Source of the DNA: Haloarcula mannanilytica
GTDB lineage: Archaea; Halobacteriota; Halobacteria; Halobacteriales; Haloarculaceae
DNA: 64,000 nt
Assembly: GCF_005406125.1 (NCBI RefSeq)
Contig: NZ_BIXZ01000003.1
Location: forward strand, 124,001 to 188,000
Reading direction: 5' to 3'
A program made the position numbers and the translations under genes. This document shows, in pieces, positions 26,404-28,720 of this stretch (its first letter is position 1; every line of letters begins with the position of its first letter). The notes below the pieces were generated by a model. The model saw only the letters and a program-made list of their open reading frames with translations. It did no database searches and was not told the origin of the DNA.

Positions 26404-27627
26404 TCACTCGGCTCCGACCACGTCTTGGTCAGTCGGCCCCTGGCCGTCGAACTCGGCGACGAGCGAATCTAGCTGTTCCGGGTCGTCGACAGAGGCGAGT
26501 GTCTGGTCCGCGGTCCGACAGTCGCCGTCGACGCCGAGGGTGTCACAGACGAGGTCGGTCGTCGCCTCGGCCATCTGCCGGTAGGTGGTTAGCTTGCCGC
26601 CGACGATGCTCGCCATGTTGTCGATGCCGTCGTCGGCGTGGTCCAGCAGGAAGAACCCACGTGAGATGCCACGGCCGCCGCGCTCGTCCTCGTCTGGTGC
26701 GTACAGCGGCCGGACGCCCCACCAGGTCCGGACCTCCGACGCGTCCGCGACCGGGGGCAGCATCGCTGCACATTCCGCGATGCTCTCCTCGACTTCCCAC
26801 TGTTCTGTCTCGTAGTCGTCGGGGTCGCGGACGGGCACGCTCGTTGTTCCGAGGACGGCCTCGCTTTCGTGTGGTACGACTATGTCGCCGTCGTCGGGGT
26901 CCCGACAGCGGTTGAGTACCGGCCCGAGGTCGTCGTACTCGACAGAGACCATCACGCCCCGCGTCGGTCGCATCTCCACGTCGAGGCCGGCCATCGAAGC
27001 GAACTCGCCCGCCCATGCCCCCGTCGCGTTGACGACGTAGTCAGCCTTGATGGTGTCGTCGACCGCGCCGCCGACTTGGACACCGGTCACCGCTCCATCG
27101 TCGACAATCACGTCCTCGACGGGCGCGTGTGGGTGTATCGTCGCCCCGTGGTCGCGGGCGTCGGCGGCGTTCGCGGCGACGAGCCGCGACGGGTAGATGA
27201 CGGCATCGGGAACCTCGAACGCGCGCTCGGTATCTGCGGCGAGTTCGGGAACTCGCTGGCGTGCTTCCTCAGCGTCCAGCGTCTCGACGGGGATACCCAC
27301 GTCTTCGCAGGCCGCCCGTTTGGCCTCGAAATACTCGGGGTCGTCCGCAGAAAGCTGGACGAACAGCCCGCCGGTATCGCGGATGCAGGCGCCGGCGATC
27401 TCCTTGAGTATCCGGTTCTCGGCGATGCACTCCTCGGCACCGACTCGGTCAGCCTCGGCGTAGCGGGCCCCGCTGTGGAGCAGTCCGTGCGAGCGACCGG
27501 AGGTACCGCTTGTCAGCCCGCCGCGTTCAACCAGTGTCACGTCGACACCGCGGAGCGCGAGATCACGGGCGACGCCGGCCCCGGTCGCGCCACCACCGAC
27601 GACGAGGACATCCGTTTCAATAGTCAT
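26404..27627 (-). CDS. GlpA-like FAD-dependent oxidoreductase, short form
   Basis: A 407-aa flavoprotein of the glycerol-3-phosphate dehydrogenase family: dinucleotide motif VVGGGATGAGVARDLALRGV at residues 8-27, VERGGLTSGTSGRSHGLLHS, and the C-terminal ASIVGGKLTTYRQMAEAT. Anaerobic-type GlpA proteins of haloarchaea are about 580 aa and carry an extra C-terminal Fe-S (BFD-like) domain, absent here. No glpB, glpC or glpK is adjacent. It may be a stand-alone glycerol-3-phosphate or related 2-hydroxy-acid oxidase. It starts just downstream of an AT-rich stretch (27628-27660) that probably holds its promoter. Confidence 0.78.
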   Translation of the reverse strand: MTIETDVLVVGGGATGAGVARDLALRGVDVTLVERGGLTSGTSGRSHGLLHSGARYAEADRVGAEECIAENRILKEIAGACIRDTGGLFVQLSADDPEYFEAKRAACEDVGIPVETLDAEEARQRVPELAADTERAFEVPDAVIYPSRLVAANAADARDHGATIHPHAPVEDVIVDDGAVTGVQVGGAVDDTIKADYVVNATGAWAGEFASMAGLDVEMRPTRGVMVSVEYDDLGPVLNRCRDPDDGDIVVPHESEAVLGTTSVPVRDPDDYETEQWEVEESIAECAAMLPPVADASEVRTWWGVRPLYAPDEDERGGRGISRGFFLLDHADDGIDNMASIVGGKLTTYRQMAEATTDLVCDTLGVDGDCRTADQTLASVDDPEQLDSLVAEFDGQGPTDQDVVGAE

Positions 27628-27804
27628 ACCAACTGTTAGGCGAAATGACGTAATATTCTACCGGTGCTAGGGGTGTTGACGACGCCATTCCCGTGCTGTC
27701 GAAAGGCGACTGCGTGTCGACGGTTCGAGACAGACGAACGGGGACACGGCCACCGAGTGTAACCCGATTTCTGTTCGCTCGGCCGCGTCCCCAAGTAGCT
27801 ACAC

Positions 27805-27811
27805 TTATATT
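27805..27811 (+). promoter_or_regulatory. TATA box of the isolated 5S rRNA gene
   Basis: TTATATT centred about 25 bp before the 5S start, the normal distance for an archaeal promoter. It suggests the 5S gene is transcribed on its own. Confidence 0.6.
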
Positions 27812-27832
27812 CGTGACCGCATTGGACACTGT

Positions 27833-27954
27833 ATAGGCGGCCACAGCGGTGGGGTTGCCTCCCGTACCCATCCCGAACACGGAAGATAAGCCCACCAGCG
27901 TTCCGGGGAGTACTGGAGTGCGCGAGCCTCTGGGAAATCCGGTTCGCCGCCACA
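27833..27954 (+). rRNA. rrf: 5S ribosomal RNA, isolated copy
   Basis: About 122 nt with the complete haloarchaeal 5S sequence: GGCGGCCACAGCGGTGGGG, CCCGTACCCATCCCGAACAC, GGAAGATAAGCCCACCAGC and the 3' strand CGCCGCC closing against the 5' GGCGG. It agrees with my recollection of the Haloarcula marismortui 5S except near the 5' end and for GAAATCCGG where I expect GAAACCCGG; that change swaps a G-C for a G-U pair and keeps the stem. No 16S, 23S or tRNA gene flanks it within the window, so it is not in an rRNA operon. Ends are set by alignment to that recollection, good to 1-2 nt. Confidence 0.93.
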
Positions 27955-28145
27955 CCATTCATCTCGTATATAATCCATCGAGCGACGCGGATGTGCTGTC
28001 CTGCGTGGCATCCGTCTCGACCATGACGGACTCGTTCGTCTCTGTCCACGCTTCGTTTGAACGCGACAGTCAGACCGGGACTGGTCTTGAGACGACCGAT
28101 GGGTGGACAGGACGGACTTCTACAGGCGGAGTCGGCCGAGGCGGT

Positions 28146-28586
28146 TTACAGGTTCGCGTACGCTTCCTCGACCATCTCGCCGGTCCGCTCGACGACATCG
28201 GCCATCGCCTCGTTGTCGGGGGCAAGTCCGGTCAGCCGCGCGATACGCATGATGCTGACGTGATACACCGTCTGGACGCCCGGCGATTCCTCCCAGATGA
28301 CGACGTTACAGGGAAACAGCGCGCCGATGCGGTGCTCCGAGTGGTCCAGCACCTCGTCCGCGATAGCCGGATTGCACGCCCCCAGGACGTAGTACGGGTC
28401 CCGCTCCGCATCGACTTTCTCGTTGAGCAGGGTCGACGGCGAGAACTCCGACGGGAAGCCAAACCCTGCCTCGGCGAAAGCCTCGCGGACGTGTTCGATG
28501 GCGTCCTCGTGGGACATTTCTAGAGTCGCGCGCTTCTCGCCGATGTCCTCGGGGTCGACTTCGCTTGGATCGATAGGCAACGTCAT
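28146..28586 (-). CDS. DUF302-family protein
   Basis: A 146-aa acidic protein. The segment EFSPSTLLNEKVDAERDPYY followed by VLGACNPAIADEVLDHSEHR and GALFPCNVVIWEE matches the DUF302 domain, whose members are small alpha/beta proteins of unknown function, often near redox or sulfur genes. The invariant GACNP and LPCNV-like motifs are present. I chose the ATG at 28586 because the family domain follows immediately; a longer frame to 28670 exists. The nearest gene upstream on the same strand is the Tat-exported protein. Confidence 0.82.
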   Translation of the reverse strand: MTLPIDPSEVDPEDIGEKRATLEMSHEDAIEHVREAFAEAGFGFPSEFSPSTLLNEKVDAERDPYYVLGACNPAIADEVLDHSEHRIGALFPCNVVIWEESPGVQTVYHVSIMRIARLTGLAPDNEAMADVVERTGEMVEEAYANL

Positions 28587-28720
28587 ACTCACACAGAGGG
28601 GTGACCGACAGAAGTCCGTTTCGTGCATGGACTCTCGGCGGTCGGTTTCCGCTGTCAGTTTGGGGACCATGGAAAAACGAGGGGTTCGCGGGACCCGGTT
28701 CGTATCGGTTTCGAACCCGG

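Follow-up and report, generated by a model that had tools for sequence, protein, structure and literature searches.

In Methanococcus, an additional 5S rRNA gene is unlinked from the rRNA operon and lies in a tRNA cluster. Separately transcribed 5S rRNA genes have been reported to be usual in crenarchaea and are known in Thermoplasma, whereas most euryarchaea link 5S rRNA (PMC8339473). In Haloferax volcanii, the 5′ end of 5S rRNA is reported to be processed by tRNase Z at a tRNA-like structure (PMC3296008, PMC7714728). According to the accessible portion of a study of H. hispanica and H. marismortui, every rRNA operon of these species contains a 5S rRNA gene and the 5S rRNA genes are identical; this portion contains no mention of the 5S copy on plasmid pHH400 (PMC5368182). 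Nearly all 5S rRNA genes of the present haloarchaeal sample are positioned in an operon behind a tRNA-like leader.

The window analyzed here, a 64-kb stretch (64,000 nucleotides) of the genome of Haloarcula mannanilytica, contains a 5S rRNA gene outside an operon (Table 1). The gene matches positions 1–120 of the RF00001 model with 85.3 bits, relative to a gathering score of 38 (E = 9.4e-17, Infernal), and is the sole Rfam match at gathering level in the whole window. ARAGORN identifies no tRNA in the 64 kb, and inspection of the flank reveals no 23S rRNA end within 800 nucleotides upstream. The gene is not operon-borne; it is unlinked from 16S and 23S rRNA genes, as are independently transcribed archaeal 5S rRNA genes. 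The preliminary description of the locus, which reported a complete 5S rRNA gene standing alone with a TATA box upstream, is correct in both respects. Locus tags skip one number at the place of the 5S rRNA gene in plasmids pHH400 and pNG700, and RefSeq may therefore already list the isolated copies as 5S rRNA genes. The gene is probably already annotated, yet apparently unstudied.

Table 1 Features of the isolated 5S rRNA unit and its neighbors in the window.
Feature	Position in window	Strand	Basis
Whole conserved unit (promoter block, 5S rRNA gene, trailer, downstream element)	27786–27990	+	BLAST with the pHH400 neighborhood as query; extents compared with 13 relatives
GTAGCTAC palindrome at −38 to −31 (overlaps with the BRE position)	27795–27802	+	At most one mismatch in each of the 14 isolated copies; absent from the 152 others
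TTATA, TATA box, −28 to −24	27805–27809	+	Same spacing in every one of the 14 isolated copies
Predicted transcription start, mature 5′ base A	27833	+	Predicted; all 14 isolated copies have a purine at +1
5S rRNA gene	27833–27955	+	RF00001 full length; operon copy identical over 120 compared bases
CATTCAT trailer	27956–27962	+	Common to operon copies; role predicted
GAGCGACGCGG, conserved downstream element	27980–27990	+	Alignment of isolated copies
Neighbor: GlpA-like FAD-dependent oxidoreductase	26404–27627	−	"GlpA-like" is a reading of the Pfam DAO match
Neighbor: DUF302 protein	28146–28670	−	One side of the isolated 5S rRNA gene

The genome containing the window is a 33-contig draft with three 5S rRNA matches: the window copy on contig C3, an operon copy on contig C1, and a partial copy at the edge of contig C8, presumably from a second operon. 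The only assembled 16S and 23S rRNA genes are located on C1, with the 5S rRNA gene behind the 23S. Across the 120 compared bases, the window 5S rRNA and that of the C1 operon are the same, and the C8 fragment shows no difference from them as far as it extends. The window and operon copies differ only in the +1 base, which is A in the window copy and T in the operon copy, and in their flanks. The preliminary description had noted a C-to-T difference from a recollected consensus as a possible mark of a specialized 5S rRNA, and had proposed an alignment to the operon copies as a check. Because the operon 5S rRNA is identical, the base belongs to the ordinary 5S rRNA of this genome and is no mark of the isolated copy; a specialized nature of the gene does not follow from it. 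Separate regulation of the isolated gene is plausible.

The genus sample comprises 32 Haloarcula genomes, 28 of which contain 5S rRNA matches at 73 places. Flanks were obtained for all places but two contig-edge fragments, and operon status was judged from the fetched flanks, in which a 23S rRNA end was sought within 800 nucleotides upstream. Fifteen isolated copies are positioned away from contig edges. One of them, in genome G022, was set aside as divergent and having a decayed T-arm, which leaves a class of 14. The counts that follow cover 66 of the 73 places, 14 isolated copies and 52 others, with seven contig-edge or broken places left out. The isolated 5S rRNA gene with its promoter block is present once in each of 14 of the 32 genomes. 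Operon copies are directly preceded by a tRNA-like element around GGTTCGAnTCC, and their leader folds into a T-arm and an acceptor-like stem with an energy that is not unusual relative to shuffled sequences (z = −0.81 and −0.37 for the two leaders folded). The T-arm leader, the site of tRNase Z, is found in 51 of the 52 other copies and in none of the 14 isolated ones, and folding of the stretch upstream of the isolated copy forms no T-arm. The isolated copies have GTAGCTAC-NC-TTATA in its place. Both GTAGCTAC with at most one mismatch and TTATA exactly at −28 are present in 14 of 14 isolated copies and in 0 of 52 others; as judged from sequence, each isolated gene thus has its own promoter, correctly spaced from the mature end. 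The +1 base is a purine in all 14 isolated copies and T in 51 of the 52 others, and the CATTCAT trailer follows 14 of 14 and 47 of 52, respectively. The G022 copy (L066, G022:C5:135376-135497) is the sole exception for both the T-arm and the +1 base among the 52. It represents a second kind of isolated 5S rRNA gene, with 15 differences from the window 5S rRNA, a decayed T-arm upstream, and no TATA box, and is a candidate relic of an operon copy.

The order-wide sample consists of 59 genomes, 56 of them outside the genus, of which 54 have 5S rRNA matches at 99 places. Ninety places were obtained and nine at contig edges were left out; after matches lacking the 5′ end and three starts with too little upstream sequence had been dropped, 84 starts remained. 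A strict T-arm precedes 82 of the 84 starts, and variants of the T-arm precede the other two. Neither TTATA at −28 nor the GTAGCTAC palindrome occurs at any of the 84 starts, and no isolated 5S rRNA gene was found in the order-wide sample. Among these 84 starts outside the genus, 70 have T, 8 have G, and 6 have A at +1; therefore, a purine at this position alone has no diagnostic value there. Among 16 plasmid starts from 14 loci, two of which are Haloarcula operons, 14 have the strict T-arm, two have a variant, and none has TTATA at −28. The 12 inspected non-Haloarcula plasmid loci, considered as candidates for isolated 5S rRNA genes in other genera, are all operons (matches H2, H7, and H9 were left out). 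The promoter block is present in all 14 isolated copies and absent from all 152 other 5S rRNA starts tested (52 from the genus, 84 from the order, and 16 from plasmids), which supports the earlier claim that the gene has its own promoter. Within the family, the strict promoter-5S pattern matches 12 of 146 genomes, each of which belongs to Haloarcula. A pattern scan of a genome-contig collection, which may omit records near the window genome and from which some species known to have the gene did not come back, returned five stretches, all from Haloarcula (sebkhae, amylolytica, argentinensis, vallismortis, and japonica). In Halorussus limi (L119), the rRNA operon of plasmid NZ_CP096663.1 adjoins genes annotated as ribonuclease Z and aCPSF1, and genes for RNA processing are thus located next to a plasmid rRNA operon.

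The interval of −28 to −24 is the usual distance of an archaeal TATA box from the start site, so the first transcribed base of the isolated gene would be the mature 5′ base. The position of the mature 5′ end is presumed from known Haloarcula 5S rRNA and the Rfam match. The invariant bases of the promoter are TAGC at −37 to −34, TTATA, and GT at −20/−19, with free positions between them at −30 and −23. The GTAGCTAC element is palindromic and lies over the BRE position, which we take not to be a canonical BRE; our guess is that the palindrome might be recognized by a regulatory protein or by one specific TFB. The combination of the palindrome with the TATA box, GTAGCTACNNTTATA, has a single occurrence in the window genome, and it was therefore rejected as an element of a regulon or of rRNA operon promoters. 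The motif TAGCTACNNTTATA is found in 15 of the 19 genomes given and is located at the isolated gene in 13 of the 14 genomes that have this gene; G030 has TAGCCAC. Extra sites have the sequence TAGCTACCGTTATA in five genomes (G001, G003, G007, G023, and G012), whereas G014 has a single TAGCTACACTTATA. In the four of these six genomes that were inspected (G001, G007, G012, and G014), no 5S rRNA gene follows the extra site. The motif is absent from the rRNA operon promoters in the seven operon upstream regions inspected, among which one GTAGCTAC is positioned 1035 nucleotides before a 16S rRNA gene. The sequence TTAAGTGTGGC in one rRNA operon promoter (L182, L184; upstream regions of H. hispanica and H. 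marismortui) resembles the TTATAAGTGTGGC core, which is present in only some isolated 5S promoters. This likeness is a hint at shared control of the isolated 5S rRNA gene and the rRNA operon.

Sequence constraint was measured as the mean pairwise identity in a gapped alignment of the 14 isolated copies. The identity is 0.35–0.50 from −250 to −51, 0.81 from −50 to −31, 0.74 from −30 to −11, and 0.93–0.99 over most of the 5S rRNA; it is 0.61–0.67 for approximately 40 nucleotides past the gene and low beyond them. Third codon positions of rpoB′ average 0.86, and the identity of the promoter block is therefore far above that of its flanks, but not above that of third positions. The isolated 5S bodies have a mean mutual identity of 97.8% (range 95–100%), whereas their upstream flanks are about 35–50% identical, and their bit scores of 79.6–85.8 overlap those of intact full-length operon copies of the genus (77.4–87.4). 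The idea that the gene is a relic finds no support in these values. Positions 17 and 61 are paired in the predicted fold; two isolated copies have C-G there and the other twelve have T-A, which is a compensated change. Structure-breaking changes were not found in the isolated 5S rRNA, the window copy being identical to the operon copy. Downstream of the gene, the stretch GAGCGACGCG is conserved; a terminator or hairpin at this place was rejected, because RNAalifold found no consensus structure or hairpin in the isolated copies and there is no terminator-like site behind the gene.

The isolated 5S rRNA equals at least one other copy in four of the 12 genomes with a comparable copy (G000, G008, G027, and G031, in the last of which the equal copy is at a contig edge). 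It differs from every other copy in the remaining eight, including G001, whose operon copy is broken. No other 5S rRNA copy is assembled in G003 and G023. In H. hispanica (G007), two adjacent bases set the isolated 5S rRNA apart from each of the three operon copies: it has TC at compared positions 105–106, where the operon copies have CG. Its +1 base is A, against T in the operons. A C40T change in loop C is found in the isolated 5S rRNA of G013 and G029 (L167/L052 and relatives versus L074, L067), and no operon copy compared in the genus has it. A two-nucleotide insertion at the 3′ end (CACACCATTCAT in place of CACCATTCAT) is common to the window copy (27953–27956) and the G004 copy (L021), yet their genomes are not sisters.

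Complete plasmids from H. hispanica, H. marismortui, H. sinaiiensis, and Haloarcula sp. CBA1115 carry the isolated unit. Its host replicon in the named complete genomes is a megaplasmid of ~400 kb (pHH400, pNG700), and the two plasmids have been described as collinear (PMC3528665). A tree of rpoB′ DNA that covers 30 of the 32 Haloarcula genomes places those with the isolated gene, 14 in number, on one side of a branch with support of 100/99, which corresponds to one change. Twelve of the 14 genomes share, with varying completeness, the neighborhood hypothetical-ABC-hypothetical-(nitroreductase)-5S-...-CcdA-TlpA-SCO-FmdA; a further genome, G004, retains FmdA. The window genome has no gene of the common neighborhood within 10 kb of the isolated 5S rRNA gene. 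Because the upstream neighbors of the common arrangement are located on contig C6 without a 5S rRNA gene, and only ~205 bp of the window genome (C3:151786-151990, 88% identity, BLAST) match the stretch around the pHH400 copy, the unit has evidently moved, or its surroundings have been rearranged, with the promoter, gene, and trailer kept.

The isolated gene is probably a functional, independently transcribed 5S rRNA gene in which initiation replaces the processing of the 5′ end by tRNase Z, and the RNA of which enters ribosomes. The sequences themselves show the isolation of the gene, the promoter block with its fixed spacing, the missing leader, the purine at +1, the confinement to one clade, and the survival of relocation; that the gene is transcribed, where transcription starts, that the RNA reaches ribosomes, and why the gene is kept are inferred. 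A single-copy 5S rRNA gene would have become detached from the operons in the ancestor of a single Haloarcula clade, and would now be transcribed by itself, mostly from a megaplasmid. The TATA box would direct RNA polymerase to start on the mature 5′ nucleotide, predicted to be the A of GTATAGGCGG on pHH400 and pNG700, so that the tRNA-like leader cut by tRNase Z would not be needed, and it is absent. The CATTCAT trailer is probably part of 3′ maturation or termination; its occurrence in operon copies suggests ordinary 3′ maturation as in the operons. The RNA would most likely enter ribosomes as an extra 5S rRNA made independently of the operons. The gene possibly originated from a 5′-matured precursor RNA, which would fit the kept operon trailer and the way the promoter meets the gene at the mature 5′ end; however, the same junction would arise through selection for the start site. 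We regard as tentative, and somewhat doubtful as a whole, the more detailed scenario in which direct initiation replaces the tRNase Z leader, a dedicated regulator or transcription factor reads GTAGCTAC over the BRE, the cell gains a supply of 5S rRNA uncoupled from the operons, or else a second 5S rRNA with a role of its own, and the mainly megaplasmid-borne gene was possibly born from precursor RNA.

The noncanonical sequence at the BRE position, a promoter block no more conserved than rpoB′ third positions, and the lack of a terminator-like site behind the gene weigh against the preferred reading. The presence of operon copies that already supply 5S rRNA counts against a ribosomal role of the isolated gene. 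The same redundancy would be expected if the gene were a recently copied or decaying pseudogene kept by chance, and the divergent G022 copy demonstrates that relics do occur in the genus. However, the retention of the gene in all 14 genomes of one clade, with an intact 5S rRNA and a conserved promoter between diverged flanks, and its survival of relocation in the window genome make this explanation very improbable. The transcript may alternatively be a 5S-like RNA with a non-ribosomal task, such as binding uL5/uL18 or titrating 5S assembly. The promoter and leader unlike those of any operon copy, the distinctness of most isolated copies within their genomes, and the C40T change that is confined in the genus to two isolated copies are in line with such a task, but the equality to another copy in a third of the comparable genomes and the whole 5S fold and length, which are kept as expected for ribosomal RNA, argue against it, and we consider it unlikely.

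A DNA-level role, in which the 5S sequence serves as a recombination or integration site and the promoter-like block binds a protein, could account for the movement of the unit in the window genome and for the palindromic GTAGCTAC. Most copies nevertheless share one neighborhood, there are no notable flanking direct repeats, and the exact TATA-to-+1 spacing and the purine at +1 point to transcription; the probability of this role is therefore slight. Loss of a 16S-23S operon through misassembly is conceivable for a draft in which operons are broken at contig ends, and the preliminary description named such an error as an outcome that would refute it. Its probability is negligible, because homologous units of the same kind are found in complete Haloarcula plasmids and the upstream block is seen in no operon copy. 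The reading of the gene as a functional, self-transcribed 5S rRNA gene is preferred.

A clade that keeps an operon-free and leader-free 5S rRNA gene in 14 of 14 genomes provides a natural test of whether the supply of 5S rRNA has to be coupled to the large rRNAs and of whether it needs tRNase Z. The isolated promoter may allow 5S rRNA to be produced with the usual trimming omitted. The two adjacent bases that distinguish the isolated 5S rRNA of H. hispanica from all operon copies make its share in ribosomes directly readable. Together with the rRNA operon double mutants reported for H. hispanica (PMC5368182), this makes the species a workable test organism.

No description of the isolated Haloarcula gene was found in the literature searched, which mostly did not extend to subscription papers. 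As far as found, unlinked, promoter-driven archaeal 5S rRNA genes are already known, whereas the additional, leaderless, clade-wide, and mostly megaplasmid-borne haloarchaeal copy is apparently undescribed. The haloarchaeal operon (16S-tRNA-23S-5S) has the same 5S rRNA, identical in the window genome, and the same CATTCAT trailer; however, its 5S rRNA gene is positioned behind the 23S rRNA gene with a T-arm leader, in place of which the isolated gene has a promoter. The tandem second 5S rRNA genes of some haloarchaeal operons (L112, L124, L240, L245, L252, L254, L258, and L259) are also extra copies, but they stay in the operon, belong to other haloarchaeal genera, and, where inspected with upstream sequence, have their own T-arm. 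The extra gene of Methanococcus is, like the Haloarcula gene, an additional copy away from the operon, whereas there is no tRNA cluster at the isolated Haloarcula gene. The 5S rRNA genes of crenarchaea and Thermoplasma, as they are reported, share with the Haloarcula gene the lack of linkage to 16S and 23S rRNA genes and, as predicted for the latter, transcription of their own. By contrast, the unlinked gene is the standard arrangement in those archaea, whereas in Haloarcula it supplements complete operons as an extra copy, limited to one euryarchaeal clade and mostly carried on a megaplasmid.
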